Of a stretch of DNA of 64,000 nt, positions 3,312 to 58,968 are shown in pieces (the first letter of the stretch is position 1; every line of letters starts with the position of its first letter). The notes below the pieces were generated by a model, which worked only from the letters and a program-made list of their open reading frames with translations, was not told where the DNA came from and searched no databases. Position numbers and translations under genes: made by a program. The DNA is from Lepiota brunneoincarnata (Eukaryota; Basidiomycota; Agaricomycetes; Agaricales; Agaricaceae), in the NCBI GenBank assembly GCA_023014365.1, contig JAEBUN010000059.1, positions 62,001 to 126,000 of the forward strand, read 5' to 3'.

Positions 3312-3384
3312 AAAAGGAACACTGTCAACCGATGTGCCCCTGCACATTCCAGAACTCAGAAGGACATTTCGTATTCTCACTCCC

Positions 3385-9603: not shown

Positions 9604-11358
9604 GTAACAGCTGCTGCCCCCCCAGTCTCTAGGGATGGCGATACCAAGGTCACAGAGGCTATCACTACCATGGCGAGGGCCTTCCCCCACCTCTCCCCTG
9701 CAGACATCCTCCACACTGTTGGAAGGGGGTCCCTCACTCCTTTGTCTGGGAGGCCCCGCAAGAGGCCTCGCAACACTACTTCTGGCCCCACGAGGTGCCA
9801 GGTTGTCATCCTGTTCGTGGGCCCTAGGCCCCTGGTCAAGGACCTATCCCAAGTCATTGTGGGAGCTAACAGAGCCCTCCTCAATGCGAAGTCCTCCCTC
9901 AATGTCACGTCTGCCTCCCTGGCATACGATGGCCTGTCTCTTGCGACCAACCCAGTCGTGTCCACTATTGTTAGAGCCGGTGCGGGTTGGAACTGAAGCG
10001 GAGGGTCGGGGTGGTATCCTTGGTATAAGGTAACCGGGGGACGGGACGACGTCAGTACGTAGATGGCGGGACCGAGGCGGAGTACTTCGGGCGGAGAGTG
10101 GACTTGCGGCCTCAGCTTATGTGCTGTGCCCTCCTACTGTCCAAGTCCGTATTTCAGGAAGTCGGGGCCGAAGCGGAGCGAGGCAGAGAGAGAGGAGGAT
10201 AGGGAACAGGGGACTGGTCCGCTGCTCGATTCGATTATCAGACTGAGGAGTACAAGCCAAGTTCCTACGGTATATATACTACTAGCTCAACGAATGATGA
10301 CTCGTACTGACTACGTGCGGAGCGAAGCGGAGACCCATATGGTTACAAGCGGATTACGAATAATTTCGAATGGAATGGAGACCGGTACGGGTATGGAGAC
10401 TGGTAACATATTCTGATTACGGATGGAGAATGGAGAACTGGACAATGGGAGCACCGAGGGTCAGGTGGTCGTGGCACATGTAGAGGTAGGTCGCGTGATC
10501 GGGGCAAAGGGTTGCGGTCGGAGCCAGTCGGGGCCGAGTCGGAGGGCATAGGGTTGTCGTGTGGAGCACACGTGGAGTCGAGAAGCCGAAGCCTAATGGT
10601 TAAGCTCTAGGTTTGGTGTGGATATGACAACTATGGATCTTAACATGATCCAGGACTGGGCCTCCCAGTTCTTCCCAGCAGGGTCGAAGCCTATGGCGAT
10701 GGTTCCCTCCTCCAAGTCCTTCATGAAAGTGTTGGACATCCCCTTCTTCGCACCTGATGGGTCTCATATAACCAGTCAGTGGATTGAGAACATCATGTGG
10801 CAGTTGTCGCATCATGGCTTTCAGAACCTCCAGGGCCCACCCCAGGTCAGGAGGAACTCCAACAAATCAGACACTGCAACTGTCTGGTTTGAGATCTGGG
10901 ACTCGCAGACCAGGTCCTCCTCCAAGTCAATGATCAGAAGGTCATTGGCCATTGGGCCCTGTGCTTGCTCTATAAGTGCGGCCTCCCAGCAAGTTGGGAT
11001 GTCTCTCTGCCACTGGTGTTGGTGGTGGGGGCACCCAACTAATGTCTGCAGGGCAAGATTCCCAACCTGCCCCATCTGCTCCGAGCCCCACAGCAAGGAG
11101 AATCATCAGTCAATGGTGGGGTGCTGTAAGGCCCGCCCCAACACGAACCCACTGGTCGCTGGCACTGCTGAGGGCACTCCATGCCCTCATCAGCCCCGTT
11201 GTAGGAACTGTGGCAGCCCCTATGCTGCCCATGACAAGAAATGCCCTTTCTGGCACAAGCATTTTGAGGATGGTTGGGCCAAGAAGAGATATCAGGAGGT
11301 ATGTGGCTTGTCTGCCACCCACAGGGTCCCACTAACTCAATCCAGGAGTAATGCCTAG
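9604..11358 (+). pseudogene. LINE-A1 ORF1 (nucleic-acid-binding protein), split by a solo LTR
   Basis: ORF1 proteins of LINEs coat the RNA. The part before the solo LTR reads ...PPVSRDGDTKVTEAITTM...; after it the frame is open from 10630 to TAG 11356. Three zinc knuckles are visible near the C-terminus: CHWCWWWGHPTNVC, CPICSEPHSKENH and CRNCGSPYAAHDKKC. The 5' end is missing. The solo LTR plus its duplication totals 666 bp, a multiple of three, but the LTR contains stops. ORF2 ATG lies inside the last codons (11351), giving an ATGCCTAG overlap of 8 bases. Confidence 0.8.
9969..10629 (-). repeat. Solo LTR of the Gypsy-2 family in LINE-A1 ORF1
   Basis: On the + strand it runs TGTTAGAGCC...GGATATGACA, i.e. 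it is a reverse-orientation LTR. The flanking 5-bp duplication is ACTAT (9964-9968 and 10630-10634). Removing the LTR and one ACTAT restores the ORF1 reading VVSTMDLNMIQDW. It resembles the 3385-4047 copy more than the two Gypsy-2 LTRs, sharing an extra segment near 10355 (TTACGAATAATTTCGAAT). Confidence 0.92.
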
Positions 11359-40811: not shown

Positions 40812-43800
40812 CATGGTGGAATGATGACTGTACCACAGCCATTCAGATGTACCAGGCGGCCCCCTTGGGGGAAGCATGGTTTGAGTTCCAGCGGATCATT
40901 AAGACCATCAAACGCAAGTTCTTCAATGAGAAGATTGAGGAAATTGCTTCTGTGAACAAGCATCCCTGTGGAATGACAAGTGTACCGCTGCCATTCAGGC
41001 ATACTGGGCAGCTCCTCCAGGAGGTGCATGGTTCGAGTTCCAGCATGTCGTTAAGGCCGTCAAGTGCAAGTTCTTCAATGAGAAGATCAAGGAAATTGCT
41101 TCTGTGAACAAGCACCCCTGGGACCTCACGACCTGGGTTAAACAGTGCAAGCTCCCTGTGTGTGATGCGATCCAGCACAATGGAGTGCTGTGTCATGATA
41201 TGGACTCCCTTTGGGATGCCCTTCACGGACCTACAACGCGGCCTCTGGCCATGCTGTGGATCTCTCAGTATTGGATGCTCTCCCTGCACAGACGGAGAGG
41301 GCATGGTACCCATTCTCAACCCTGGAGCTTGAGGACGCTTTGCATTCTTGTGCAAAGAGGTCTGCTCCCAGGCCCGACCATGTTATGTGGTCATACCTGA
41401 AGGATATCGTGGTGGACCGAGTATCCTGCCGCATGCTCGTCAATCTTGCCAATGCCTGCCTGGTGGCAGGGCATTGGCCAGATTATTTCAAGGAGTCTAA
41501 CTTGGTGGTCATACCTAAACCGGGGAAGCCCTCTTACTCTATGCCCAAGGCCTTTTGGCCAATTGTGTTATTGAACACGTTGGGCAAGCTTGTGGAGAAA
41601 ATGATCTCCAACTGCCTCCAATTTGACTGTGTCAGATGGGGGGTGTTTCATCCCAACCAGGTTGGTGGCATCCGCCAGAAGTCCATGGAGGATGCTGGGT
41701 TGATCCTCACCCATCTTGTTCATGTGGGGTGGGCTCAGGGACTGTGGACAAGCATTGTCACTTTTGACATTGCTCAGTTCTTTCCTTCGCTGAATCATGA
41801 TATGATTCTAGCAGTACTATCATGGTCGGGGTTCGCACCAGAGTTGGTGTGGTTCTTTGGCTCTTACCTAGTCAGAAGGTCTACCACGTACCTGTGGAAC
41901 TCCTTCCAGTCTGACCCTAGGCAGGTGGATGTGGGGGTGGGGCAGGGCTCTGCTCTGTCGCCAGTCCTGTCCACCTTGTATCTCACCCCCCTGGTGTACT
42001 TGTACTACCAGAGGACACCTGGCCTCAGCATCGACATGCTTTCGTATGTTGACGACAGGACCCTTATAGTTCAGACCAAAACTTGGGAGGACAACATTTC
42101 TGCCCTACAGGCAGCCTACCGCTGCGTGCACAGGCTCTTTGACTCTTTTGGCCTCATGCTTGAGCATACCAAGTCTGAGGTGTTTCACTTCTCTCATAAC
42201 CCAAGGGATGCCAACCCGCCCATTGACCTGGGCTTCCATCCGTATATGGGGGACACCCATTTGAGACCCAAGCTGTTTTGGCAGTACTTTGGTTTCTATT
42301 TTGACCAGGCTCTCACCTTTCGTGAGCACATACATTACTATTCTACCAAAGCATTCTCCATGGTTGGAGCGATGGGGATGCTTGGCAATTCAACCTGGGG
42401 GCTGCTTCCTGATCAGAAACGCCTCCTGTGCCAGTCCTGCGTGGTTCCTATTGCCATGTATGGATTCCACATGTGGTATCATGAGGGCTTCCATAACAAG
42501 GGAATCCTCAAGATGTTCAACTCCATGCAGCGGTGCACCGCTAATTGGATCATTGGTGCATTTTGCACATCCCCTACTGGGGGGATGGAGGCCCTTGCAG
42601 GCCTTCTGCCCTTCTGGTTGCATCTCAAGAAGTTGGTGTCCTGAACAATATTCTGGGTAGCCACACTTGGGGCGAATCACCTGCTTCGGCCCTTGCTGGG
42701 CCAAGAGTTCAGAGGAAGCTCCCCAGCGCACCCTTGTTCCATTTCATCTCTCACCCCAGTGCTTTGGCCCAAGGTGAAGAGTGCCCTTATGGAGGTACAG
42801 AGCGTACTTCCACAGCTTACTGAGCCGTTCAGCCTGTTCGCAGATAAGAACAGGCCAGGTCTCAGGCTTTTGGACCGCTTCTTGGAGTGGATCAAATTTG
42901 TGCTATATGCTGTTGATCTGGAGGGGAATTCAAAGCAACAGCATCTCAATGGACTGCACACCTCCATTTGGAGGGTGCAGGCTGACCCATCATCTGCCTG
43001 CATAGCAGCTGGTGCCCACTGGCTGCCATGCAGGAGACTGCAGGCTGTTTCAGCAGCCTGTGTGTTTGCAGGCAGGTGCTTGGTCAAGCAGGCCAGGCAG
43101 GCCATGGGGAGAGTTCTGCTCGCTGATGCAGAACTCCACTCCATTCAGTTGGGAGTAGGCATAGTCTTGGATTGTGCTGAAACTGACCACATTTTTATCT
43201 ACACCAGCTCCGCAGGCTCTGCCCACAGAGCTGTGGATCCCTCCATACATGTCGGCCAGGCTCACTCCCTGGAGGTGTGTCAGTCTCTGGATTGCTGGTT
43301 GTCTGCCAAGGCCCAGCGGACTGTCACCTTCTGGCAGGTGCCCTCGGGCTCTGTTGCAGAGCTTCACTCTGACACCATCGTGATGGCAAAGGAGCTCTGC
43401 ATGTCACTGGGCATCTGCCCAGCAACTACTATTGATTCCCTCTGGGCTGAGGTCATGAGGGAGTGCATTGATGAGTGGGTGAATATGTTTCGCTCGCCCT
43501 TGTATAGGGGTAGGAACTTCCTGCCCCTATTGGACTCCCTTGGGAAGCCTCTCCAACCCTCATACCTCTCCAGCGGTACTTGGCTCTGAGAAATCAGTCC
43601 TTGGATGTCTGTCGCTGGCACAGCACGGGCAGCCTGCACTATACTTGGTCATGCCCCTATTGGGGAGTACTGTGCTAGATTTCACCCCCAGGAGGATCAC
43701 TCCTGCCCTTGTGGGTTGCGGCTTGAAACCTGCACTCACATTCTCACTTCTTGTCCGAAGTATAGGTGGCGTGGCAGTTTATCCCATGACCTCAATGCCC

Positions 43801-43868
43801 TTCTGGGCTTTCTGGAACACAATCCTTCCATGTTTGTGTTCCTATCCTGGCCCCAAGGGGTGGGATAA
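40812..43868 (+). pseudogene. LINE-A2 ORF2, part 2: RT, RNase H-like domain, zinc motif
   Basis: Resumes after LINE-B2. A 152-bp tandem duplication near 40817-41120 shifts the frame. From 41211 the RT is open for 477 codons: VVIPKPGKPSYSMPKAF, FDIAQFFPSLNHD, GQGSALSPVLSTLYL, YVDDRT (YVDD kept, next Gly to Arg). TGA 42642, then open 42693-43587 (VLLADAELHSIQLGVG, IFIYTSSAGS), TGA 43587, then the zinc motif HPQEDHSCPCGLRLETCTH to TGA 43866. The longest open RT of the LINE-A family here. Confidence 0.85.
40817..41120 (+). repeat. 152-bp tandem duplication in LINE-A2 ORF2
   Basis: TGGAATGATGACTGTACC (40817) recurs as TGGAATGACAAGTGTACC (40969), and both units end at CTTCTGTGAACAAGCA.CCC. The two units differ at many positions, so the event is old or joined two different copies. 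152 is not a multiple of three, which explains the frame change. Confidence 0.8.
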
Positions 43869-44319
43869 CTGGGGAGGGCCTTCGGGTTATTCCCCCCTTG
43901 TGGACTTTGGTCTCGAGGAGCTGGTGGTTATTCGCCCCCTACCCTTGGGTGGGGTGTAGCAATTTATGGAGAATTGACTCCTAATGCCCAATAAGAGTGG
44001 AGACCTGAAACTCTTAGAGCCTTAGTCTGTGGGGTGTAGGGATTTATAGAGAACTAACTCCTAACCTCCTTTGGGGGGGGACCTGTTGGCCCTATCCACC
44101 CCTCGTTTGTCGCACCCAGGTTTTTGTTGGGGTAGTGAGCCCCTCACCCATGTGCACTTCTTTATGGAGTGTAGCCTTTCGAGTCAGTGGGACTCTCTTC
44201 CCTACCTTTATTGGTAGTTATACCATGTATTAGTTGCCTTGTATGTAGCTAGTGCACATGGACTGCATTTGAGCACCACATTATAAATTGTTGATTTCAA
44301 AAAAAAAAAAAAAAAAAAA

Positions 44320-47300
44320 GAACAAGTGTCCCTGGGACCTCATGGCCTGGGTTAAGCAGCACAAGTTACCGGCCTGTGACGCAATTCAGCATGATAGTGT
44401 GCCATATCATGACATGGATTCCCTTTGGGATACCCTCCACAGTACCTACAATGTGGCCAGAGGCCGCATTGTAGATCCCTCTATATTGGACACCCTCTCT
44501 GCTTGTGCAGAGAGGGTGTGGTACCCCTTCTCGATTTTGGAGCTTGAAGACGCCTTGCATTCTTGCACGAAGTCCACCCCTGGTGAAAAGGTAGAAACTT
44601 TCATAGGTTTTAATATAGATAGTGGGCTTGTTTTCACTAAGCTTAGCTGCAATTCAATAAGCTTAAGCTAATACAAGTGGAATGAGATAGATAATGAACA
44701 GTTTCGTCTTTTAGGGTGTTCTGGGGGTGCGTTCTGACAGCGAAATTCAAGAGAGTAGTGTTTTTAGAGGTTAACAAACAGCTGTTGAAGTTATCTTAGC
44801 CGTACAGTGCAACAATGAAAGGACAATCCCTGTCAATTCAAAGCGCGGGGTCTCTGGTCTCTGGTCTCTGGTCTCTGAACTCTGGTCTCTGTCTCTGTCT
44901 CTGTCTCTAGCACTCTGGAACTCTAAACTCTGAACTCTGGTCTCTGTCTCTGTCTCTGGGTTGGTCAACGACCAAAGAAATCACACTTAACGACGCACAC
45001 TAAATAGCCTTCTGAAACTGTTCTTGATCATGGCTCGCAGACTTGCATGTGGAAGCGGGGGTGAGACCTCTTGCTTCTCCACGAACAAGTGCGACCGTAT
45101 TTATATTGTTTAGATACATATGAGAGATAGTAAATATGAAATAGAAAACAATAAGCTTAATTGTTACAGGCACTGTAGAACATTTTGGAAGGTTTGGCAG
45201 CATTTCTACCTCACCCTGGGTTATGGGTTTTTCTCTGATTAACGAATGGCAATCCAGCCAGATGTGTTCCATGCTCGTCTGCATTATTCTGCGTCCACGC
45301 AAGTGCGTTAAGTTTCCGGATCAATTATGATCAGAATGTATAGCGGATGGACAATCCCTTGATCCGTTGTAATTAATCTCAGTTAAGCAGTATGCCAAAG
45401 TGCTGGGACCCACAAAGCACTTGTTAGGAGTCTTTGATATTTCTAGGGTTTTGGGCATCGGGTATTGCCTCCCAAATGTTGGACGTTCTGTTCCATGGTC
45501 CAGTCATCATTATTGAACTCGCTATAGACATAATATGCCTGTGACAGCCGCTAGGTACATTCTTTTATGCTCAAACGCATTCGGGTTCATCAGAAAACTG
45601 CTCGTAAGGTCCCTTGATGCGACTGGGGTATACTCAATAGGCTATGTAGAGTCCTGAATCCCTCTGGAGAGCATTCTGATAGCTTGGTTCACTAAGCTTA
45701 GTGATAATGAACTGGTTTGAACACATCTGAGGCTTGAGTATCCTCAATTCGGTCAAACTGGCTACTACCGGATATAGTACCAATCCTCTATAGAGTTCTT
45801 TAATGATATAGCCAATGATTCTATGTAGAGAATTGTTCCAGAGTACGGAATTCATGTATAGGTGTGAAATCGGTGTATCACCGGGCCCAACCATGTTATG
45901 TGGTTGTACCTGAAGGACATCATGGCAGACCAGACGTCATGCTGCGTGTTCATTGATCTTGCCAATGCCTGCCTTACGGCAGGACATTGGCCTGATTATT
46001 TCAAAGAGTCCAACTCGGTGGTCATACCTAAGCTGGGGAAGCCTTCTGACTCTATGCCCAAGGCCTTCTGGCTGATCATGCTACTGAACACATTGGACAA
46101 ACTTGTGGAGAAAATGATCTCCAACCACCTCCAGTTTGACTGCGTCAAGTGGGGGGTGTTTTATCCCAACCAGGTAGGCAGTATTTGCCAGAAGTCCATG
46201 GAGGATGCTGGGTTGATCCTCACCCATCTCGTTCATGTGGGGTGGGCTTGAGGCCTACAGATGAGTGTTGTTGCTTTTGACATCGCTCAGTTCTTCCCCT
46301 CGCTGAATCATGATATGATTCTAGCAGTGCTTTTGCAGTCGGGGTTCACGCCAGAGTTGGTGTGATTCTTTGGCTCCTACTTGGTTGGGAGGTCTACCAC
46401 TTACTTGTGGAATTCCTTCAGGTCAGACCCCAGGCAGGCGGATGTGGGTGTGGGGCAGGGCTCTGCTCTGTTGCCAGTCTTATCTGCCTTGTATCTCGCC
46501 CCCCTGGTTTATCTTAATTACCAGAGGACCACCAGCCTCAGTGTCAACATGCTTTCATATGTCGACAATGGGACTCTCATAGTCCAGACCAAGTCATGGG
46601 AGGACAATGTTTTGGCCCTGCAGGCAGCTTACTGCTGTGTGCATGGGCTCTTTGACTCTTTTGGCCTCACACTTGAGCATACCAAGTCTGAGGTGTTCCA
46701 CTTCTCTCACAACCCGAGGGATGCCAACCTGCCCATTGACCTGGGCTTTCATCCATACATGGGGGATACCCCTTTGAGGCCCAAGCTGTTTTGGTGGTAC
46801 TTGGGTTTCTATTTTGATCATGCCCTCACCTTTTGCAAGCACGTACATTACTATTCTACCAAGGCATTCTCCACAGTTGGCATGATGGGGATGCTTGGCA
46901 ATTCAACCTGGGGGCTGCTTCCTGACCAGAAACACTTCCTCTACCAGTCCTGTGTGGTTCCCATTGCCACGTATGGCTTCCGTATGTGGTATCACGAGGG
47001 TTTCTGTAATAAGGGAATCCTCAAGATGTTTAACTCCATGCAGTGACAAGCCGCTAATTGGATTATCGGTGCATTTCATACATCTCCCACTGGGGGAGCA
47101 GAGGCCCTTGTGGACCTTCTGCCCTTTCAGTTGCATCTCAAGAAGTTGGCTTCCCAGACAATATTTAGGGTTGCCACTCTTGCGGCAAATCATCTGCTTC
47201 AGCCCTTGCTGGGCCATGAGTTCAGGGGGAGCTCCCCAGAGCACCCTTGTTCTATTTCCTCTCTCGCCCTGGGGCTTCAGCCCAAGGTGAAGAGTGCTCT

Positions 47301-48372
47301 TATGGAGGTACAGGATGTGCTTCCTCAGCTTACTGAGCTGTTCTCTCCATTTGCGGATGAGAACAGGCCTAGTCTCAGACTTTTGGACTGCTTCTTGGAG
47401 CAGATCAAATTTAGGCTCTACACCATTGATCCAGAGGGGGATTCGAAGCAATGGCATCTTGACAGACTGCACACCTCCATTTGGAGGGTGCAGGCCAACC
47501 TGTCATCTGCCTGCATAGCAGCTGGTGCCCACTGGCTGCCATGCGGGAGGCTGCAGGCCATTTCAGCGGCTTGCGTGTTTGCAGGTGGGCACTTGGTCAG
47601 GCAGGCTGCGGGGAGGGTTCTGCTTGCTGATGCAGAACTCCACTCCATCTGGTTGGGAGTAGGCATGGTCCTGGACCATGCTGAAACTGACCACATCTTT
47701 ATCTACACCAGCTCCATGGGCTCTGTCCACAGAGCTGTGAATCCTTCTGTACATGCTGGCTAGGCTCACTCCCTGGAGGTGTGTTGGTCTCTGGATTGCT
47801 GGTTGTCTGCCAAGGCCCAGTGGACCATCACTTTCTGGCAGGTGCCTTCAGGCTCTGTTGCAGAGCTCCACTCTGACACCATTGCAATGGTGAAGGAGCT
47901 CCATGTATCGCTGGGCATTCACCCGGTGACTACTATTGACTCCCTCTGGGCTGAGGTCATGAGGGGGTACGTTGACGAGTGGGTGAACATGTTTTGCTCA
48001 CCCTTGTATTGGGGTAGGAACTTCCTCCCCCTACTGGACTCCCTTGGGAAGCCTCTACAACCCTCATACCTCTCCAGGGGTACTTGGCTCTGAGAAATTG
48101 GTCCTCAGATGTCTGTTGCTGGTACAGTGTGGGCAGCCCGCACTATACTCGGTCATGCCCCTATTGGGGAGTACTGCACTAGATTCCACCCCCAGGAGGA
48201 TCACTCCTGCCCTTGTGGGTTGCAGCTTGAAACCCACACTCACATTCTCACTTCTTGTCCAAAGTATACACGGCGTGGCAGTTTACCCTACAACCTCAAT
48301 GCCCTTCTGGGCTTTCTGGAGCGCAATCCCTCTGCATTTGCATTCCTATCCTGGCCCCAAGGGGTGGGATAA
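44320..48372 (+). pseudogene. LINE-A3 ORF2: RT, RNase H-like, zinc motif, split by X2
   Basis: From NKCPWDLMAWVKQ to STPG, then after X2 GPNHVMWLYLKD..., VVIPKLGKPSDSMPKAF, FDIAQFFPSLNHD, YVDNGT (second Asp of YVDD to Asn), IFIYTSSMGS and HPQEDHSCPCGLQLETHTH. Stops: TGA near 46249, TGA near 46363, TGA near 47043, TAG near 47761, TGA 48091. Frame end TGA 48370. Confidence 0.8.
44584..45880 (-). repeat. Element X2 (reverse orientation)
   Basis: Second copy of element X. On the + strand it begins TGAAAAGGTAG and ends GGTGTATCA; the 4-bp duplication is CTGG (44580-44583)/CCGG (45881-45884). It matches X1 along its whole length. It interrupts LINE-A3 RT at PG/GPNHV. The frame corresponding to ATG 23533 of X1 is still open (about 94 codons); the other is cut short. 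Confidence 0.8.
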
Positions 48373-48646
48373 CTGGGGAGGGCCTTCAGGTTAATCCCCC
48401 CTCGCAGGCTTCAGTCTCAAGGAGTCTACAGTTATTCACCGGCTGCTTTCGGGTGGTCTGAAGTGATTTACTGCAAACCGACACATTACCCTGATAAGGG
48501 GGGGACCCGATGCTCTTAGAGCCTTTGTCTGTGAGGTGTAGGGATTTGCAGGGAATTGACCCCTACCCCCTTCAGGGGGGGGACCTGTTGGCCCTATCCA
48601 CCCCTTGTCTGTTGCGCCCTGGTTCCTGCTGGGGTAGTGAGCTCTT

Positions 48647-50040
48647 TTTTGTTTTTTTGTTTTTTTTAAATCTCCAATTTATAATGCAGGCCATATAGGG
48701 AGGCCACGTGCAGCTACTAACTATGGTACAACCGACTGAGCCATACACTACAGGGTATCTGTACATACAACGCATGACCACAGATGCAGGCATGCATTTC
48801 CCCATGCCCAGGACAAAGCCGCCCTGAACAAATGGAGGCAGGAAGACAGCTACCACCCAGTGTGTGGTGCGAGAACCAAACCGAAGCAAGGTCCCCCCCC
48901 TTATTGGAGGTTAGGGGTCAATTCCCTCATAAATCCCTACACACCACCTGAAGGTGGCGGGGGAATAACCAATGCCCCAGCCCGGACCCAACTGGGTGCT
49001 AGGCAGAGCCACTAGCCAATACCCCCTGGAGGGGGCCCTGCCCTCTCAGCAAATGTGAACACGGTTGGCAATGCCTCGAGGAAAGCGATGAGGGCCTTGA
49101 CCGTAGCCGGGACCCCTGCCATGGAGTGCCTAGGGCAACTCTGGAATACATGCTCATGAGTCTCCTCCCAAAACCCGCAGTGACAGGAATAGTCTTCCTG
49201 TGGGAAGAAGTGCCACTGATAGCTCCCTTTTAGCACGTGATTAAGAATAGCACGTGTCATCCAGGCCATCACAGACACCAAGTGAGCATGTGGGATCCAG
49301 GCCCCACTGTGGAGATACGTGGGCTGCAGGGGATGGTCATCGTCCCTGGTGAGCTGGAGGAAACCATGCCCACAATGGTCAGGATCCTGGAACAAATCAA
49401 TCCAGTGGTCCTGACACAAACATACTTCCTCCTTGTGGAGGTAGTCAAGCAAGGCCTGGGGACAAGCCCCTACCCCAACAGGAGGCAATGATCGAGCAAA
49501 GTCGTGCACCTGAGTATGGAAAGGCCACTTTGCATGCAAAGGGACCTCCCAAAAATGGACTGAGCAGGCCAGACCCCCAGCAAACCACTTGGCGAGAAGG
49601 CGACAAACCACCAAGGAATGACCCTGGGTGGAGTGCACCGAAGGATCCACTGCCTGCCTGGCTGTGGCCATCAAGTTGGTGAACAGAACGAGATAGGCGG
49701 CACCCTCAACAGAAACTGCCTTGGACACTGCCAGCCAGATGGCAAAAAGCTTGGCCTCGGGAGCCATAATCCTCTCCCCTAGAAGCCGGACCACATGGAT
49801 GCAGTCCAGCCCCCGGAAAACCTGAGCAGCTGAAACCACCTGGTGGACCCAGCAGGGTGGCAGACTTGTGTCCATTGTCACCACCAGAACCCCCAGATCA
49901 GCCTGTGACTGGGCAAGAACCCAGTTGAGAGCTGTGACGTGGGCTGTAAGGGCATCCTCCACCCCCCGGTTGTATGAGTGGAAGTGGACCCGACCCAGGT
50001 ACACATCCAAGAGGCGATGCCCTGGCCAGGCCTCCGGCAT
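48647..50040 (-). mobile_element. LINE-B3: truncated LINE-B in the LINE-A3 3' UTR
   Basis: A T-rich run (48647-48667, with two G interruptions) marks the 3' end. The exact 15-bp TSD is GGGTAGTGAGCTCTT (48632-48646 and 50041-50055). Confidence 0.93.
49012..50040 (-). pseudogene. LINE-B3 ORF2 C-terminus, uninterrupted
   Basis: Open from the truncation point to TAG 49012 with no stop. RNase H-like part: VVTMDTSLPP, APEAKLFAIWL and LFTNLMATARQ (Asn for the usual Asp). Zinc motif FFPQEDYSCHCGFWEETHEH. Non-functional only because it lacks the endonuclease and RT. Confidence 0.8.
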
Positions 50041-50226
50041 GGGTAGTGAGCTCTTCACCCATGTGCACTTCTTTACAGAGTGTAGCCTTTCAAGCCAGTG
50101 GGGCTTTCTCCCCTATCTTAGTTGGTAGTTATACCATGTATTAGTTGCTTTATTGTAGCTAGTGCACACAGACTGCGTTCGAGCACCATGTTATAAATTG
50201 TTGATTTAAAAAAAAAAAAAAAAAAA

Positions 50227-50606
50227 GGACTTAGAGGATGGGACTGTCACTGTAGGCTGTGAACCTGAGGGGAAGAACCAGGAAGCCCAGTCCTGGATCA
50301 TGTTAAGATCTGCCATGGAGGCAACTGGGTTGGTTGCAAGAGAGATGCCATCATATGCCAGGGAGGTGGACGTGATGTTGAGATTCAACCTCACATTGGA
50401 CAGGGTGCGGTTAGCTCCTGCAATGACCTGAGACAAATCCTTGATTGGAGGCTGAGGCCCAATGAACAGGATGATGATCTGGCGCCTTGTGGGGCCAGAG
50501 GTTGTATTGTGTGGCCTCTTCTGGGGCCTCCCAGCAGAAGGGGTTGGAGATCCTCGACCAACCATGTGGAGGATGTCCACAGGGGATAGGTGGGGGAAGG
50601 CCCTTG
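50227..50606 (-). pseudogene. LINE-A4 ORF1, most C-terminal piece
   Basis: Reverse strand: AFPHLSPVDILHMVGRGSP, ILFIGPQPPIKDLSQVIAG, MADLNMIQDWAS, then VPSSKSF at the junction with poly(A). Open throughout. It matches LINE-A1 ORF1 in 9680-10740. Confidence 0.75.
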
Positions 50607-51257
50607 TGTTAGAGCCGGTGCGGGTCGGGACCGAAGCGGAGGGTCGGGGTGGTATCCTTGGTATAAGGTAACCGGGGGACAGGGCGAAGTCAGTACGTAG
50701 ACTTCGGGACCGAGGCGGAGTACGTCGGGTGGGGGGTTGGACTTGCGGCCTCAGCTTATGTGCTGTGCCCTCCTACTGTCCTAGTCCGTATTTCAGGAAG
50801 TCGGAGCCAAAGCGGAGCGAGGCAGAAGAGAGGAGAGGATATGGAACAGGGAGCTGGTCCGCTGCTCGATTCGATTATCAGACTGAGGAGTACAAGCCAA
50901 GTACCTACGGTATATATACTACTGGCCTTACGAACTATGACTCGTACTGACTACGTGCGGAGTGAAGCGGAGACCCATATGGTTACAAACGGATTACAAA
51001 CGAAATGGAGACCGGTACGGGTATGGAGACTGGTAACGTATCTTGACTACGGACGGGAAATGGAGACGGGGAAATAGAGACAGCGAGGTTCAGGTGACCA
51101 CGGCACGTGTGGAGGTGGTCGCGTGATCGGGGCAGTGGGTTGCGGTCGGAGTGAGTCGGGGCCGAGTCGGAGGGCAGAGGGTTGTTGTGTGGAACACACG
51201 TGGAGTCGAGAAGCCGAAGTTTAAGTGATTAGACTTATAGTTGGCATGGATATGACA
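50607..51257 (-). repeat. Gypsy-2 3' LTR
   Basis: On the + strand TGTTAGAGCC...GGATATGACA; in element orientation TG...CA. A TATATATA motif lies near 50909. Same length as the 5' LTR. Confidence 0.95.
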
Positions 51258-51270
51258 GTGCCCCCCCTTT
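51258..51270 (-). promoter_or_regulatory. Gypsy-2 polypurine tract
   Basis: In element orientation AAAGGGGGGGCAC directly precedes the LTR start TGTCATATCC. A G-run at this place primes plus-strand DNA synthesis in LTR retrotransposons. Confidence 0.75.
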
Positions 51271-51332
51271 AGGGCCGAGCCTCGAGGCCCTAGGCGGTCC
51301 AGACCGGGTCCATCGGAAGACATCCGCCCGAG

Positions 51333-51340
51333 TATAAAAA
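51333..51340 (+). promoter_or_regulatory. TATA box of the antisense gene in Gypsy-2
   Basis: TATAAAAA on the + strand, 50 bases before ATG 51390, in GC-rich surroundings and with CCACC just before the ATG. It points the same way as the spliced gene and opposite to gag-pol. Confidence 0.6.
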
Positions 51341-51389
51341 CCGGCGAACTGGTTCGGTCCGGAAATACACAACTTGACCTCCTACCACC

Positions 51390-52475
51390 ATGAGCAGCCA
51401 ATCGTCTTGACAACCAACCACGGCGGAGCGCAAGGCGCAGTTACTGAGGGAAAAGGCGGAGCAGGAGGAGCGGATGCGGCTGGAGATCGAGAGGTTGGAA
51501 GAGGAGGAATGGCGAGAGGAGGAACGGCGATTGGCGGTAGAGCGCCAAGAGGAAGAACGGCGACGGATGATTGAACTGCGTCAACGGCAAGCGGAGGAGC
51601 GGGCAAGGGAGCGACGGGCGGAAGAGATCAGGCGACAGCAAGAGGAAGCTGCTGAGGACGAACGTTGGGCGATCCGGGCCCGACTCGTCGCGATGACTAC
51701 GACGGCTTCATCCAGCCGCCTGCCGGAGCAGCCTATGGAAGTCGACCATGAAGAGTCCGACCCGAATTACACGGGCGATGACGCGGCGAGGGACGAAGAG
51801 GAGGAGGAGGAGGAGGACTCCAAAGGTTCGGAGGTAAAGGGAAAGGGAAAAGGAAAGGCGAGGGCGGCCCCGCGGCGGGGCAACAAACACGTATTCGGAG
51901 GCGATAACCCGTGCTGGAGATGTCAGCGGGATGAGGTCCGGTGCGAGATTGCCGGCGGGTAAGTAAATACAAGAGTTCCTACGATGATAATTGCTGACAA
52001 AGGCCCCAGCAACACTAGGAGTTGCCGACGGTGTAGCAAAATGAAGAAACGATGCGGGGGTCAAGAAGAGACGGAGCCGAGCGGAGCCGGAGGTTTGTCG
52101 GGCCAGCAATTCGAAGGTGAGTAAGGAATCCTGTATTATGATGGACGCCAATTGATGGACCTTGTAGAGTTGAAACGGCTCATCGAAGAAAGGCACCAGG
52201 AGACCGTCAAGAAAATCTACATCCTGGAGGTGCGAATTGAGCGGTCCATCGCTCGGTTGGGGGAAAAGGTCGACAAGATGGGGTCGCTTGCTGGCCGCTA
52301 CGAGCAACTACGGCGTTGGGAGGCTCAGGTGGACGGAAATTGGTCGAGTGGAAATTTTTCGGAGACGGAGGGTTCGGAGGGGAGTGTCGGGCCCGCTTCG
52401 GAGGAGGAGGTGCAGGATTTGATGGAAGAAGTGAATGGGTCGCCCGGGCTCTCTGGAGACGACACCGATAGGTAG
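51390..52475 (+). CDS. Three-exon antisense gene inside Gypsy-2: coiled-coil/Zn2Cys6-like protein
   Basis: Exons 51390-51958, 52010-52116 and 52168-52475 give exactly 328 codons including TAG. Introns of 51 bp: GTAAGT...CCCCAG (with GCTGAC branch-like motif) and GTGAGT...TTGTAG. The N-terminus (about 20-100) is a long Glu/Arg-rich coiled coil; an acidic stretch and a KGKGKGKA basic patch follow; then C175-WR-C178-X6-C185-X9-C195-RR-C198-SKMKKR-C205, which fits the Zn(II)2Cys6 spacing, with intron 1 splitting the two halves; the C-terminus is a second coiled coil (LKRLIEERHQETVKK) and acidic tail. In-frame TGA at codon 7 (51408-51410) is either a mutation (CGA to TGA) or means translation starts at ATG 51474. 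It could be a DNA-binding regulator; the function is unknown. It converges with pol, whose stop is 70 bases away. Confidence 0.75.
51959..52009 (+). other. Intron 1 of the antisense gene
   Basis: GTAAGT...CCCCAG, 51 bp, with GCTGAC about 12 bases before the acceptor. Using the nearer AG at 52001-52002 would give an early TAG; using 52008-52009 keeps the frame and yields SCRRCSKMKKRC. Confidence 0.75.
52117..52167 (+). other. Intron 2 of the antisense gene
   Basis: GTGAGT...TTGTAG, 51 bp. Splicing joins GGLSGQQFE to ELKRLIEERHQ in frame. Confidence 0.75.
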
Positions 52476-52544
52476 TTGTACGGGGTTGTTTTTTTGGTTT
52501 GTTTAATACATGGTTGTTTCTTGGTGCGATGTGTGGTCAGTAAC

Positions 52545-55500
52545 TCAAAGTGAGTGAAGAGGACCAGGCTTTGCAGGGTAAGAGGAATGAAAAGCCTCTA
52601 CGAGATCTATAGCATGTTCAAGCTTGGTGGCTGGCAACCACGAGGACTCTTCTTCAGTGTCTTCATAACCTAACCAGATGACTTTATAGAGGAGCTTGCA
52701 CGCACGGCGCCGATCGATCTTAGAGTCGACGATGCGGGCAATCTCGTATTCTGGTTCACCGTCAATGGAAACCGGTGCGGGCGGCGGATCCGATCGGGCG
52801 GGTATGGTGTTAGGTGTGGCTGGTTCGAGCATGGAAACATGGAAGACTGGGTGTACTCCACGCATGGAGTCGGGAAGTCGGAGTGTAAGGGAGTGAGTAC
52901 CTGCTTGTGCAATGATCTCATAAGGCCCAAGGTACTTTTCGGAGAGTTTTTTGGAGGGACGGGTGGTGCGGAAGAATTGGGCTTTCACGAATACCTTTTG
53001 TCCAACCTTGAAGTCCGGGGCGGGGAGTCGGCGGGCGTCGGCGGAGGTCTGATAACGTTGCTGGGCTAGCGCTATTTCGGACTTCAAGGTGGTGTGTAGG
53101 TCGTCGAGGTCAACAGCAAAATGGCGGGCCCGAGCGGAGGCGAGATCGCGTTCAGGATGAACTGTGATGTTCGGATGGTATCCTTTATTAGCGAAGAACG
53201 GGGAGATACCGGTGGTGGCACTAGGAGCGTTGTTGTAAGCGAACTCGGCTAGTGGTAGTAATTCGGACCAATTGTCCTGTTGGTAGTTACAGTAGACCCG
53301 AAGATATTGTTCGAGGGTCTGGTTGGTGCGTTCCGTCTGTCCGTCGCCTTCTGGATGGTAGCCCGAAGTGAAATGTAACTTCATATCGAGGGCTTGTCCC
53401 AATGAGCGGAAGAAGTGGGAGACGAATTCGGAGCTGCGGTCGGAGGTAACATGTTCGGGTACGCCGTGCTTGGAGAAGACGTGGAGGACAAATAGGCGGG
53501 CGAGGTCGGAGGAGGTGACGGTATCATAAGTCGGGATGAAGAGGGATTGCTTGGTGAGTCTGTCAACGATTACTAGGATGGCGTCGTAGCCGGAGGAGGC
53601 GGGGAGTTTTTCGATGAAGTCCATGGAGATTGAATTCCAAGGGCGTTCGGGAATGGGGAGTTGTTTGAGGAGACCGTAGGGACGGTGGCGCTGGGGTTTA
53701 GACCTCATACAGGTGACACAAGACTTACAGAAATCCTTGACGAAGGTGCGGACACTAGGCCAGGTGTATTCGCGCCGGATGAGTTCTAGCGTTTTGTTCT
53801 GACCGAAGTGTCCGGCTAGGACATGATCATGCTTGTACTGGAGGACCCGAAGTCGGAGATTGTCGGCGTCAGGGACGTAGATTCTGTCGTCTAGTAGGAG
53901 GAAACCTTTATCATTAACTGACCAACGGCCTTCTGGGCTAGCAAGGTGGGCGGAAGCGGTCGGATCCGCTGGTAGGGCGGCGAGGATATCGCGGTGTAGC
54001 TGGTCGAGATCCATGACTACAGCTGCGCGAAGGGAAGGGGCGTAAAGAGTGGTGGCACGGACGGAGGCCGCGAGTTGTTCATGAGTGAACACAGGCCGGA
54101 AGTTGTGCGGGTTGACCGATGCATAGTCGCTATTCCCCCCTTTAGGGTAGACGTCCCACCGTCTAGTTAGGGCGTCAGGCTTGGTACCGAGGCGGCCGGG
54201 TCGGAAACGGATGACGAGGTGGAACTGGGATAGGAACTCGGACCAACGGGCTTGGCGGCGAGTGAGGATTTTGGTGGTGCAGAAGTATTCAAGGTTTTTG
54301 TGGTCGGTGACTACATCAATAGTAAGAGGGGCACCCTCAAGATAGTGCCGCCAGATACGAAAAGCCTCGAATATCGCCAGGAGTTCCTTGTCGTGGGTGT
54401 CATAATTAAGTTCGGCCGGGTTAAAGGTGCGGGAATGGAATGCAACGGGGTGAACCTCTCCATCATCGGTGATGATAGAGAGGATAGCCGCAAGGGCGTA
54501 GTCGGAGGCGTCGGTCTCGACAATGATCTGAGCATCGGGGGCCCAAGAAGTGAGGACGGGGGCGGATATGAATGCTTCTTTCAGGGAACTGAAGGATTCG
54601 CAGCATTCGTCGGTGAAATTCCATTTCACATCTTTGCGGGTGAGGCGGGTGAGCGGAACGACGATGTCGGAGTAACCGTGAATGAAGCGACGGTAGAAAT
54701 TGGCGAAACCTAAGAAGGACTGGATGTCCTTGACTTTCTTAGGTTCAGGCCACTCCTGGATGGTCTTGACCTTGGATTGGTCCATTCGGAGACCGTCGGG
54801 GGAAAGAATGTAGCCGAGGTATTCCACTGTGTCAGAGTGGAATTGGCATTTGTCGGGGCGGGCGTATAGGCCGTGTTGTCGGAGCCGCTTGAGGACCTCC
54901 TTGACTTGGTCACGATGGATACTATGATTGTCGGAGTATATCAGAATGTCGTCAAGGTAAATAGTAACGCAGACGTCGAGCATGTCCTTGAATATATCGT
55001 TCATGAACCGCTGGAAGGTGGCGGGGGCATTGGTGAGGCCGAAAGGCATAACCATCCATTCGAAGGAGCCGTAGCGGGTCCGAAAGGCGGTCTTCCATTC
55101 GTCGCCGTCAGCAACGTGGACTAGATGGTAAGCGTGACGGAGGTCGATTTTGGTATATACGCGAGCTTTGCGAGGGGAGTCTAAGAGGTCGGAGATGAGC
55201 GGAAGGGGGTAGCGATCCTTCTTGGTAATACGGTTGAGACCTCTAAAATCAACACATAAACGGAGGGAGCCGTCCTTTTTCTTGACGAAGAGGACCGGGG
55301 CTCCATGAGGAGAAGTGGAGGGGCGAATGAAGCCAATAGATAAATGTTCGTCAATGAAATCACGTAGAGCTCCAAGCTCTGATTGTGAAAGGGAGTAAAT
55401 GGTACCGACCGGAGGCTGACCGCCATCCTCTAGGTTAATCTGGAGGTCGTAAGGGCGGTGTGGAGCGAGTGTGTCAGCACGCGATTTACTGAAAACATCG

Positions 55501-56210
55501 GCGAACTCATGGTATTCCTCGGGGATGGACGAGAGGTCAGCCGGGTCATCGGAGACAGAAGAGGACGCGGCCGATGCGGAGGCGGCGGAAAGATTGATTC
55601 GGAATTGTTGGGAGCCAGGGAGCTTGGCAGCGCGGATAAAGGCAGGAGCGTTTATCAAGGAGATGTGCGGTTTCGCAAGGGGGACAGATTGGGACGAGGT
55701 CCCGGACAGGGGTGGTGAACCTAGGTCAGGAGAGTCAGGGGCGGCCATAGGCGGAGCCGATGCGGGTGCGACGCAGGTAGAGACGGAAGCAGGATTCTCG
55801 AGTAGGGATGGCCGGAAAGTAATACTGCCCAAAGCCCAGTCAATCAACGGATTGTAGCGGGTGAGCCAGTTGTGTCCTAAGACCACAGAACAGGAAGAGT
55901 CGAGCTGGGTGACATAAGTGTCCAAAATGATAGATTCACCGGAGGGGAAGGATACAGGCAGTTGCGCAAGCTCCGTAATGTAGGCGTTTGAGGTCCCATC
56001 AAATAACCGAAGTTCAATAGCCGGGATGGACGAGGTTGGAATACTATGAGAACGAACGAAAGAAGAGTCCACAAAACAGTGAGTAGAACCACTATCAACA
56101 AGAGCTTTGAAAGGAGAAAAAGAAGAAGAAAAGTCAGAACTAACTACATTGTCCGTTGTAGAAAGCGGGTCCGAAGCGGAGAGTACAGGAGCGGAAACAG
56201 AGGGTAACAA
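52545..56210 (-). CDS. Gypsy-2 pol polyprotein (PR-RT-RNase H-IN-chromodomain)
   Basis: 1,221 codons from the first ATG without interruption; the frame is also open upstream to the gag stop (56350), so it is probably made as Gag-Pol. Domains: aspartic protease ALVDSGSTHCF (about residue 36), RT with KIDLRHAYH and YLDDILIYSD (about 420), RNase H with ETDASDYALA, HDKELLAIF and VTDHKNLEYF (about 565-670), integrase with HFGQNKT...CKSCVTCMRS, then D (MDFIEKLP), D (TSDRSSEF) and E (GQTERTNQ), and a C-terminal chromodomain (EYEIARIVDSK...LYKVIWLGYE). All checked catalytic residues are present. It copies RNA to DNA and inserts it; the chromodomain probably steers insertion to marked chromatin. Confidence 0.93.
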   Translation of the reverse strand: MLPSVSAPVLSASDPLSTTDNVVSSDFSSSFSPFKALVDSGSTHCFVDSSFVRSHSIPTSSIPAIELRLFDGTSNAYITELAQLPVSFPSGESIILDTYVTQLDSSCSVVLGHNWLTRYNPLIDWALGSITFRPSLLENPASVSTCVAPASAPPMAAPDSPDLGSPPLSGTSSQSVPLAKPHISLINAPAFIRAAKLPGSQQFRINLSAASASAASSSVSDDPADLSSIPEEYHEFADVFSKSRADTLAPHRPYDLQINLEDGGQPPVGTIYSLSQSELGALRDFIDEHLSIGFIRPSTSPHGAPVLFVKKKDGSLRLCVDFRGLNRITKKDRYPLPLISDLLDSPRKARVYTKIDLRHAYHLVHVADGDEWKTAFRTRYGSFEWMVMPFGLTNAPATFQRFMNDIFKDMLDVCVTIYLDDILIYSDNHSIHRDQVKEVLKRLRQHGLYARPDKCQFHSDTVEYLGYILSPDGLRMDQSKVKTIQEWPEPKKVKDIQSFLGFANFYRRFIHGYSDIVVPLTRLTRKDVKWNFTDECCESFSSLKEAFISAPVLTSWAPDAQIIVETDASDYALAAILSIITDDGEVHPVAFHSRTFNPAELNYDTHDKELLAIFEAFRIWRHYLEGAPLTIDVVTDHKNLEYFCTTKILTRRQARWSEFLSQFHLVIRFRPGRLGTKPDALTRRWDVYPKGGNSDYASVNPHNFRPVFTHEQLAASVRATTLYAPSLRAAVVMDLDQLHRDILAALPADPTASAHLASPEGRWSVNDKGFLLLDDRIYVPDADNLRLRVLQYKHDHVLAGHFGQNKTLELIRREYTWPSVRTFVKDFCKSCVTCMRSKPQRHRPYGLLKQLPIPERPWNSISMDFIEKLPASSGYDAILVIVDRLTKQSLFIPTYDTVTSSDLARLFVLHVFSKHGVPEHVTSDRSSEFVSHFFRSLGQALDMKLHFTSGYHPEGDGQTERTNQTLEQYLRVYCNYQQDNWSELLPLAEFAYNNAPSATTGISPFFANKGYHPNITVHPERDLASARARHFAVDLDDLHTTLKSEIALAQQRYQTSADARRLPAPDFKVGQKVFVKAQFFRTTRPSKKLSEKYLGPYEIIAQAGTHSLTLRLPDSMRGVHPVFHVSMLEPATPNTIPARSDPPPAPVSIDGEPEYEIARIVDSKIDRRRACKLLYKVIWLGYEDTEEESSWLPATKLEHAIDLVEAFHSSYPAKPGPLHSL

Positions 56211-56347
56211 AGTAACTAAAGGAGAAGTTAATGTAATATGAAGAGAGTTTGGATCGGAAAGAGCGGACGCATTGAGACGGAAACTCTCTGGAGCACAGCA
56301 GAGTTCAATGCGATCCTCAGTCTGTGCAGAGGCCTGAGGACCGCCGA

Positions 56348-56357
56348 CTATTTTTCC
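56348..56357 (-). promoter_or_regulatory. Putative -1 frameshift site at the Gypsy-2 gag stop
   Basis: In element orientation the codons are GAA AAA TAG. If the AAA tRNA slips back one base it re-pairs with AAA and the next codon becomes ATA; that frame is open into pol. It is not the classical X XXY YYZ heptamer, so the mechanism is inferred from frame continuity only. Confidence 0.5.
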
Positions 56358-57748
56358 GAGCTCGGGAGAGCCGGCGCGTCTGTCTCGGGGAGCTGAGCCT
56401 GTCGGCCTTTAGCCTTGGCATCAGGGAATTTTTTCTTGTCGCAGTTAGCAGCCCTGTGATTGGGATCTGCGCAGACAAGGCAGAGGTTATTGTCGAAACG
56501 TCGTTGACGTTCCTCGGGGGTTAATTTACCGTCCTTACCAAGTTTACTAGTAAGGTCGGATTTGTGCGGGGCCGATTTCTGACCGGCGGACGGGTTGGGC
56601 GGATTGCCCTTGAGGCTGGTGTTGGGCGTGCTGCCTCTGTTATTATTGGCAGGCTTGGCGGCAGGTTGCGGGTTGGTCGAGGTGGAAGGGGATGGGTTAC
56701 CTCCAGGTTTCCTAGAGGCGGTCGGGTCCGAAACGGATTTGGCGCGGGCCTTCTCGCGTTGGCGTTCCCAGTAGCGAGCGTCGATCTTCATCGCTGCTGC
56801 TCGCATTTCGATGAAGGTGTCGGGCTTGCCGTCGGGCCGATTGGACAGAATGTCCTGGATGCGGTCGGGGAGGCCTTTGTAGTAGCGGTGACAGAATACT
56901 TCGTCACCCCAGCGGAGTTGGCCAGCTAGACGGAGGAAATCGACGTTGTAGATGGCGATCTTCTCGTCGTAGCGCATTCGGAGGGAGTCGAGCTGCTCAG
57001 CAGCTTCTCCGGTCGGATCCGCGGGACCGAAATTGGTCTGCAGTTCCAGGGTGAACTGGTCCCAGTCCTCGATCCAGTCGTGTATTATTCCATGGTTGTC
57101 GGCCTCGTTGAGGCCGATTTCGAAGTGTTGCTGTGCCACGCCTGTGAGGTATGTCAACGCGAAGTTGACCTTGGTGGCGGGGATTGCGAACTGGGCCGGG
57201 TTAGTACGGAAATAGAGCCGACATTGGAAGAGGAAGGGTTTGAGTTTGGCGGGGTCGGAACCTGTAAAGATGTCAGGTTCGCGAGCTTTGGTACGGGGAG
57301 ATCGAGGAGGCTGTGGGGCTTGAGAGTTCCCACGGCCGTCCATTTGGTCGGCTATGCGTTGGAAAACTCGGAGTATGAGTCTATCATGGTCGTCTCGGGT
57401 GTTGCCAGGTGGGATGTTGTTGTTGTTGTCGCCGTTGTCTGATGGTTCGTCGTCGCCCGGGGGCCCGTCCCCATTGTCAGGGTAGTCGTCGGGATCACCA
57501 GGGTCGCTGGGATCAGGATTGGGGTCGGGGCCGTCGTCGGGGCCGTCGGGAGTCCGGAATACTGAAGGTTGTATATCTTCAGAGAAACGGTCTGGGGTCG
57601 AGGGTGCAATCGATTGTTGGTGAGAGCGAGAAGCCCTCGGGGAGTCGGGTTGCAGTTCCTCGGAAGGAGGTTGTCGAGTGATGCGTTTGCTACGGCGAGC
57701 GGCTGGAGTTACCAGAGTGCGAGTACGGGTAACTGTTCGAGAGACCAT
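56348..57748 (-). CDS. Gypsy-2 gag (capsid/nucleocapsid)
   Basis: 466 codons, ATG 57748 to TAG 56348. The first 150 residues are Pro/Asp/Gly-rich and probably disordered. The central part is a Ty3-type capsid (FLFQCRLYFRTNPAQF, WDQFTLELQTNFGP, LRMRYDEKIAIYNVDF). A CCHC knuckle CLVCADPNHRAANC lies at about residue 423. The pol frame is -1 relative to gag, and the stop follows GAA AAA, so a -1 shift at the A run would join them. Confidence 0.92.
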   Translation of the reverse strand: MVSRTVTRTRTLVTPAARRSKRITRQPPSEELQPDSPRASRSHQQSIAPSTPDRFSEDIQPSVFRTPDGPDDGPDPNPDPSDPGDPDDYPDNGDGPPGDDEPSDNGDNNNNIPPGNTRDDHDRLILRVFQRIADQMDGRGNSQAPQPPRSPRTKAREPDIFTGSDPAKLKPFLFQCRLYFRTNPAQFAIPATKVNFALTYLTGVAQQHFEIGLNEADNHGIIHDWIEDWDQFTLELQTNFGPADPTGEAAEQLDSLRMRYDEKIAIYNVDFLRLAGQLRWGDEVFCHRYYKGLPDRIQDILSNRPDGKPDTFIEMRAAAMKIDARYWERQREKARAKSVSDPTASRKPGGNPSPSTSTNPQPAAKPANNNRGSTPNTSLKGNPPNPSAGQKSAPHKSDLTSKLGKDGKLTPEERQRRFDNNLCLVCADPNHRAANCDKKKFPDAKAKGRQAQLPETDAPALPSSEK

Positions 57749-57801
57749 GGTTAGAAAAATTCAGAGTGTGGTGGACAGGAGGAGTTTGAGTCTGATAATA
57801 C

Positions 57802-58452
57802 TGTTAGAGCCGGTGCGGGTCGGGACCGAAGCGGAGGGTCGGGGTGGTATCCTTGGTATAAGGTAACCGGGGGACAGGGCGAAGTCAGTACGTAGACTTC
57901 GGGACCGAGGTGGAGTACGTCGGGCGGGGGGTTGGACTTGCGGCCTCAGCTTATGTGCTGTGCCCTCCTACTGTCCTAGTCCGTATTTCAGGAAGTCGGA
58001 GCCGAAGCGGAGCGAGGCAGAAGAGAGGAGAGGATATGGAACAGGGAGCTGGTCCGCTGCTCGATTCGATTATCAGACTGAGGAGTACAAGCCAAGTACC
58101 TACGGTATATATACTACTGGCCTTACGAACTATGACTCGTACTGACTACGTGCGGAGTGAAGCGGAGACCCATATGGTTACAAACGGATTACAAACAAAA
58201 TGGAGACCGGTACGGGTATGGAGACTGGTAACGTATCTTGACTACGGACGGGAAATGGAGATGGGGAAATAGAGACAGCGAGGTTCAGGTGACCACGGCA
58301 CGTGTGGAGGTGGTCGCGTGATCGGGGCAGTGGGTTGCGGTCGGAGTGAGTCGGGGCCGAGTCGGAGGGCAGAGGGTTGTTGTGTGGAACACACGTGGAG
58401 TCGAGAAGCCGAAGTTTAAGTGATTAGACTTATAGTTGGCATGGATATGACA
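57802..58452 (-). repeat. Gypsy-2 5' LTR
   Basis: On the + strand TGTTAGAGCC...GGATATGACA, 651 bp, TATATATA near 58104. The base pairs just inside it in element orientation read GTATTATCAGACTC, without the TGG that starts most tRNA primer-binding sites. Confidence 0.95.
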
Positions 58453-58968
58453 CCTTGCCATAGTGGCAATAGTCTCTGCCACCTTGGTATCGCCATCCCT
58501 AGAGACCAGAGGGGCAGTGGCCACCTGAGCAAAGAAGCACTTAGCATCCCTAGGCTTGGTGGAGAGATTGACCTTAGGCAGTGGCGGGAACGCCATCCGC
58601 ACATAGGACATGCCTGCCTGCGAAGGCCCAGGACCCAGAGGGTTGGGTGGCTTTGCTGGGGGAGGGGGGGCCTTACCCTTGCCCTTGTTGCCCCTAGGGG
58701 TGGTGGACTTGGCCACACTTGACCCCACTGCCTGGGTGGTGTGGGAGTCAGGGGCCATGTCCATGGGGGCTGGACCAGAGGGCAGAGCCTCGATCGCAAG
58801 CCAGGAATGGGGGGCTACAGTGACACCCTTAGGGATTGTTTTAGCTGCCTCCAGGATAGGTTGGCATATGCCCTCCCTGAAGGGTCACATGCCATTGATA
58901 ATAGAGGCCTGCAGCATCTCCTCGTCCATGTGGCCATCCAGGGCATAGTCAAGGAACCCACTGTGATG
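58453..58968 (-). pseudogene. LINE-A4 ORF1, middle piece
   Basis: Reverse strand: IPKGVTVAPHSWLAIEALP, SGPAPMDMAPDSHTTQAVG, KGKAPPPPAKPPNPLGPG, MSYVRMAFPPLPKVNLST, then PLVSRDGDTKVAETIATMAR at the Gypsy-2 insertion. It matches LINE-A2 ORF1 after 30522. Confidence 0.75.

Follow-up and report, generated by a model that had tools for sequence, protein, structure and literature searches.

A conserved two-intron gene antisense to gag-pol in a chromodomain Ty3/Gypsy retrotransposon of Lepiota brunneoincarnata, and its candidate role as an LTR regulator

We found that a Ty3/Gypsy retrotransposon of Lepiota brunneoincarnata contains a real, protein-coding gene under purifying selection on the strand opposite to gag-pol. 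The structure of this gene is conserved among copies across the genome, the gene is linked to both pol and the LTR, and the LTRs hold an excess of short CGG/CCG sites. We tentatively favour the idea that the antisense product is a trans-acting, DNA-binding regulator of the LTR, to which we give slightly less than an even chance.

The window, by which we mean the whole stretch of 64,000 nucleotides analysed, contains a full-length element on its minus strand (50607-58452; Table 1). The pol ORF matches protease, RT, RNase H, integrase and chromodomain families, with the rve match below rve's own cut-off, and the element is therefore a chromodomain Ty3/Gypsy retrotransposon; the Gypsy order of the pol domains, with the chromodomain after the integrase, is that of chromovirus Ty3/Gypsy elements. 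The gag and pol ORFs overlap in different frames. Among the matches listed for pol, the closest named entries were from Leucocoprinus (84%) and Agaricus (82%). The window contains two further LTRs of the same family, at 3384-4047 on the minus strand (90% identical to the LTR of the element, target-site duplication CTCCC) and at 9969-10629 on the plus strand (87% identical, duplication ACTAT); these have target-site duplications and their internal region is absent from the window, indicating that they are solo LTRs. Three other stretches (41199-44320, 45868-48640 and 49012-50226) are decayed and partly repeated, and by eye resemble non-LTR elements, with RT-like frames that contain stops. A-runs lie in or near these stretches, close to 44300 and 50208, and dense CTCTGGTCTCTG-like simple repeats occupy 44850-44960.

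Table 1. Features of the retrotransposon and its antisense gene, in window coordinates; + and - are the strands of the window.
Feature	Position	Strand	Remarks
Target-site duplication CCTTG	left 50602-50606, right 58453-58457
3' LTR	50607-51258	-	99.2% identical to 57802-58452 over 651 bp
LTR repeat 1	50625-50641	+	CGG-N2-CCG-N3-CGG
LTR repeat 2	50704-50720	+
LTR repeat 3	50801-50817	+	one core mismatch in the window copy
LTR repeat 4	50956-50972	+	weakest, 76% to the reference copy
LTR repeat 5	51156-51172	+	one core mismatch
Polypurine tract	51259-51275	-	AAAGGGGGGG on the element strand, adjoins 3' LTR; by eye
TATAAAAA of antisense gene	51333-51340	+
Exon 1	51390-51958	+	ATG at 51390; E/R-rich helix, acidic stretch, basic KGKGKGKAR stretch, cysteines 1-3
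In-frame TGA	51408-51410	+	codon 7; disrupts the window copy
Six-cysteine cluster	51912-52055	+	CX2CX6CX9CX2CX6C, split by intron 1
Intron 1	51959-52009	+	51 bp, GTAAGT..CAG; 48-51 bp across 40 copies
Exon 2	52010-52116	+	cysteines 4-6
Intron 2	52117-52167	+	51 bp, GTGAGT..TAG; 49-51 bp across 40 copies
Exon 3	52168-52475	+	most of the coiled-coil candidate, acidic tail, stop at 52473-52475
pol ORF	52545-56408	-	1287 aa; protease, RT, RNase H, integrase, chromodomain, by family matches
gag ORF	56348-57760	-	470 aa stop to stop; CX2CX4HX4C knuckle, by eye
5' LTR	57802-58452	-	pairs with 50607-51258

Between pol and the 3' LTR of this minus-strand element lies a plus-strand gene of three exons and two introns, with 327 codons and a stop. 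A preliminary description of this DNA had placed the gene at this location and on this strand, and the ORF and LTR coordinates bear it out. The coordinates likewise confirm the TATAAAAA sequence, the ATG, the three exons, the two 51-bp introns with canonical ends and the 327 residues that were described, as well as the division of the cysteine cluster between two exons, with three cysteines in each. By contrast, the statement that the gene looks complete overlooked the TGA at codon 7, which makes the window copy broken and incomplete as a gene.

The preliminary description had proposed a search of basidiomycete Gypsy elements for the gene and a measurement of dN/dS; the other copies in this genome and their dN/dS turned out in favour of the gene. 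In the genome of the same organism (55.6 Mb, 95 contigs) we found at least 40 DNA-level matches to the gene (40 of 202 candidates scored), and at least 120 distinct matching places. The ATG and the GT..AG ends of both introns are kept in all 40 aligned copies, TATAAAA is kept in all 38 copies that span that site, and 37 of the 40 have a total exon length divisible by three. The gene is free of inner stops and frame shifts in 23 copies and broken in the other 17. Its Nei-Gojobori dN/dS is 0.15-0.39, with upper bootstrap limits of 0.22-0.64, in eight pairs chosen by hand from the 23 open copies; for the end of pol, the values are 0.02-0.06 (eight pairs, five of them common to the gene comparison), indicating that the gene encodes a protein and is less tightly constrained than pol. 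Of the eight gene pairs, seven differ within the cysteine cluster, and there dN/dS falls to 0-0.15. In five of the six pairs counted, divergence at third codon positions is similar to that of the introns, and first and second positions diverge less. For example, divergence between copies L021 and L024 is 0.175, 0.135 and 0.390 at the three codon positions and 0.469 in the introns, and the weakest contrast of the six pairs is that of L002 with L018 (0.104, 0.064 and 0.125; introns 0.228). The conservation in 40 copies and the purifying selection thus uphold the earlier claim of an accessory gene on the opposite strand; the part of that claim that concerns splicing is a prediction from the gene structure.

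No clean loss of an intron was seen among the copies examined. Two candidates for an intron-less copy were rejected: L056 is a short match in which a deletion spans intron 2 and parts of exons and is not a clean splice, and L057, whose open frame is longer, proved to be a normal copy adjoining an LTR and pol. Two diverged copies (L045 and L046) gave a consistent two-intron reading by script, with one and two stops, respectively, and in six diverged copies (L041-L046) the frames break, by eye, at about the same places. The retention of the antisense introns in all 40 aligned copies fits spread of the element through its sense RNA.

We also asked how firmly the gene is tied to the rest of the element. 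The end of pol is present in the expected arrangement at 39 of the 40 gene loci, L040 having none, and LTR-related sequence lies upstream at all 38 loci tested, if only in part at L027, L028 and L038. Conversely, when the 40 best pol copies are taken as the starting point, 29 are accompanied by the gene at the expected spacing among the matches listed. The gene thus has the position and orientation of an aORF-3R (an antisense accessory ORF between pol and the 3' LTR), occurs in the majority of family copies and, judging from dN/dS, is conserved as a protein. Three of the remaining 11 best pol copies were examined, and in all three an internal deletion has removed the middle part of the gene. 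Two gene-deleted copies, L047 and L048, share identical breakpoints and lie at different sites, as their alignment ends at the LTR edge; the remnant in both is an intron-free frame of 71 codons that contains no cysteines. Hence, a gene-deleted derivative has multiplied, indicating that the element can do without the antisense gene or receives its product in trans. Copies L024 and L032 are mosaics, in which the first half of the gene is diverged and the C-terminal half is close to the family of the window copy. Between L024 and L002, dS exceeds 1 through the end of the cluster, whereas the C-terminal half is nearly identical (dS 0.05 and 0); dS of pol is 0.1-0.4 in eight pairs. Based on the divergence pattern of L024, members of the family seem to exchange segments of the gene.

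The predicted protein consists of an E/R-rich N-terminal helix, an acidic stretch, a basic stretch, the cysteine cluster, a linker and a coiled-coil candidate. The preliminary description had two coiled-coil regions around the cluster. The C-terminal one is retained as a candidate (residues 222-275, with 67% hydrophobic residues at a/d positions); the N-terminal one is better described as a helix rich in E and R whose heptads are weak (38% hydrophobic a/d over residues 14-105 of L002). The order of cluster, linker and coil is the layout of Gal4-type dimers, and the Zn2Cys6 spacing is CX2CX6CX5-12CX2CX6-8C. The spacing CX2CX6CX9CX2CX6C, which falls within this range, is present in 38 of the 40 copies, the exceptions (L031 and L037) both being frame-shifted. 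Matches to the Zn2Cys6 family PF00172, for which the gathering cut-off is 21 bits, were weak: two full-length copies scored 7.6 bits each, two 54-aa pieces 14.6 and 21.4 bits, a 46-aa piece 16.8 bits and the first half of the cluster 16.3 bits. The best stretch aligns the first half of the cluster with the second half of the profile, and the second half of the cluster alone matched no Pfam family. Among PDB sequences, the best matches of the cluster piece were to the fingers of MutM-type glycosylases (E 0.46 and worse); matches to the structures of C27B12.11c, Pho7 and PPR1, which we take to be Zn2Cys6 proteins, were also weak (E 0.88, 4.1 and 8.6). Given this weak evidence from Pfam and solved structures, we call the cluster Zn2Cys6-like by its spacing, and not a member of PF00172. 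A search of 5.8 billion proteins with residues 150-290 of L002 gave 402 candidates, none at E<=0.01. With a five-piece alignment (A1), none of the best 7992 candidates by shared words, among which low-complexity words may have taken up places, reached E<=1 in the same 5.8 billion proteins. No relatives were found in virus and prokaryote contig collections, which is weak evidence given what these collections cover, and neither NCBIfam searched with L002 nor Rfam searched with the element gave anything at the gathering threshold.

The LTR contains a 17-nt repeat with the core CCGARGCGGAG, which occurs five times between the LTR and the ATG, all five within the LTR. Allowing at most one mismatch, the core has 20 matches in the window, compared with 1.19 expected, and 18 of these lie in the window's four LTRs of the family. 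CGG-type sites are typical of Gal4-type Zn2Cys6 factors. We counted CCG-N3-CGG sites in six LTRs chosen by hand from among the site-richer ones: each has 4-6 sites, compared with 0.22-0.32 expected, a number reached in none of 1000 shuffles of each LTR; when any of 48 orientations and spacings was allowed, the observed count was reached in 0 to 45 of 1000 shuffles. Across near-full LTRs, 25 of 35 have 4-6 such sites and 10 have 0-3, the most decayed copies included. Six other stretches, located upstream of diverged copies, contain just 0-2 each. Sequence identity is 94.1% within the sites and 90.3% elsewhere in the LTR, a difference that is not significant (61 of 500 random placements reach this value), in a comparison of ten hand-chosen LTRs that left out L036, L037, L039 and L040, which are decayed, and LTRs of 630 bp or less.

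The element carries a third gene beside gag and pol, on the opposite strand and with a putative TATA-like promoter of its own just internal to the 3' LTR. In the reading that we favour, the gene would be spliced from a plus-strand transcript. The packaged RNA would be the other strand, on which these splice signals do not exist, so the introns would persist through each round of retrotransposition. The product would be nuclear, dimeric and Zn2Cys6-like and would bind DNA in trans, most likely at the CGG/CCG triplet sites repeated in the LTRs; binding would set transcription from the LTR (gag-pol) and of the antisense gene itself, in a direction that may be either activation or repression. In favour of a regulator are the invariant splice sites and ATG, the dN/dS values, the linkage to pol and the LTR, and the intron-like divergence of third positions. 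The Zn2Cys6 spacing, the 21.4-bit piece and the weak matches to Zn2Cys6 structures point the same way at the level of sequence resemblance, and the coil candidate behind the cluster, the excess of sites in the LTR and the two gene-deleted copies with the same breakpoints are also in its favour. Against it stand the low score of the full protein, the lack of any homologue in our searches and the best PDB matches being of MutM type, together with the non-significant conservation of the LTR sites and the near-full LTRs with few of them; moreover, a dispensable gene would likewise yield deletion derivatives. The earlier suggestion of a DNA- or RNA-binding regulator therefore gains from the Zn2Cys6-like spacing, the coil candidate and the LTR sites, loses from the score of the full protein, and is kept as a candidate.

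Other roles would also account for parts of these data. The product could be an anti-silencing factor, binding the CpG-rich LTR repeats to block host methylation or packing, rather than a classical transcription factor. The candidate sites do hold CpG and lie within the LTR, L036-L040, which are the most decayed copies, combine 0-1 sites with 4-13 stops, and plant VANC proteins are said to act by anti-silencing; however, the full protein has no above-threshold family match in Pfam or NCBIfam, and we regard this role as quite unlikely. It is also unlikely that the product acts after transcription, in nuclear import, integration targeting or RNA chaperoning with Gag and integrase. The basic stretch and the cysteine cluster would suit binding of DNA or RNA, and the gene remains linked to pol, but such a role would leave the repeated LTR sites unexplained, and pol already carries a chromodomain, often regarded as a targeting module. 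The interruption of the window copy and of 17 of the 40 aligned copies, and the existence of gene-deleted copies, would be consistent with a chance ORF or a decayed captured host gene that has no function. This explanation is strongly disfavoured by the kept splice sites and by dN/dS well below 1 between subfamilies, and we consider it extremely improbable.

Restraint, or control of copy number, is in our estimation a minor possibility. It could work through repression of the LTR or through double-stranded RNA formed with the genomic RNA, to which any plus-strand transcript would be complementary; the gene-deleted copies have multiplied, and the same possibility has been raised for plant antisense ORFs (excerpt of PMC7264820). 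An effect of RNA only, however, needs no purifying selection on the protein. Furthermore, the coding part of the gene does not overlap pol, stopping 69 bp short of the end of the pol ORF, and the simple form of the antisense restraint on pol put forward in the preliminary description is not supported; an effect at the level of RNA is still conceivable.

The gene had been described as foreign to the standard Ty3/Gypsy plan. This is right; however, plants and Botrytis already provide examples of antisense genes at this location, in Grande, RIRE2, Retand, PvRetro13 and the fungal element Boty (excerpt of PMC7264820). Grande gene23 and its counterparts in RIRE2, Retand and PvRetro13 resemble the gene described here in being antisense and in lying between pol and the 3' LTR, and gene23 has its own promoter and a nuclear protein (excerpt of PMC7264820). 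Antisense ORFs occur in all Retand elements studied, with a TRP28 domain in 97% of clusters (excerpt of PMC11963269). The excerpted descriptions of plant antisense ORFs name TRP28, SMC and similar domains and no zinc cluster, and do not mention introns, whereas the gene described here has two conserved introns; Retand is a plant non-chromovirus (excerpt of PMC11963269), whereas our element is a fungal chromodomain element. Boty brtn of Botrytis cinerea (Zhao et al., 2011, cited in the excerpt of PMC8365987) is likewise an extra gene antisense to gag-pol in a fungal Ty3/Gypsy element (excerpt of PMC8365987), between pol and the 3' LTR (excerpt of PMC7264820); its host is an ascomycete, and the likeness is at the level of published description. 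The word "antisense" is absent from the excerpt of a survey of fungal chromodomain elements (PMC2864245), and the titles and abstract openings listed from the open-access literature yielded no fungal LTR element with a zinc-cluster gene in antisense orientation. What antisense accessory genes do in LTR elements is an open question (excerpt of PMC7264820). The present family makes it testable: its copies are many and nearly identical, the protein has a conserved candidate DNA-binding domain, and the LTRs hold short candidate sites; copies that have lost the gene naturally serve as controls, and the host is a fungus.

Compared with fungal Zn2Cys6 factors (Gal4-type, PF00172), the antisense product is alike in its cysteine spacing, in the coil candidate after the cluster and in the CGG-type candidate sites, and unlike in that the full protein scores far under the family cut-off and the gene sits in a retrotransposon. 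HBZ of HTLV-1 is spliced and has a bZIP domain. It belongs to a retrovirus and has that bZIP in place of a zinc cluster, and we claim no homology with it. Like the gene described here, HBZ runs antisense in a retroelement, and its product is nuclear (excerpt of PMC11963269); a further difference is that the antisense promoter of HBZ lies within the 3' LTR (excerpt of PMC7264820). What is new here is apparently the conserved introns, the zinc cluster and the candidate LTR sites, the antisense position being already known. A more specific proposal, doubtful but worth stating, is that the product is a Gal4-like regulator encoded on the opposite strand, with introns that exist only in the antisense direction, which reads arrays of CGG-N2-CCG-N3-CGG throughout the family, among them gene-deleted copies that would depend on it, and which would be an independent fungal counterpart of HBZ.
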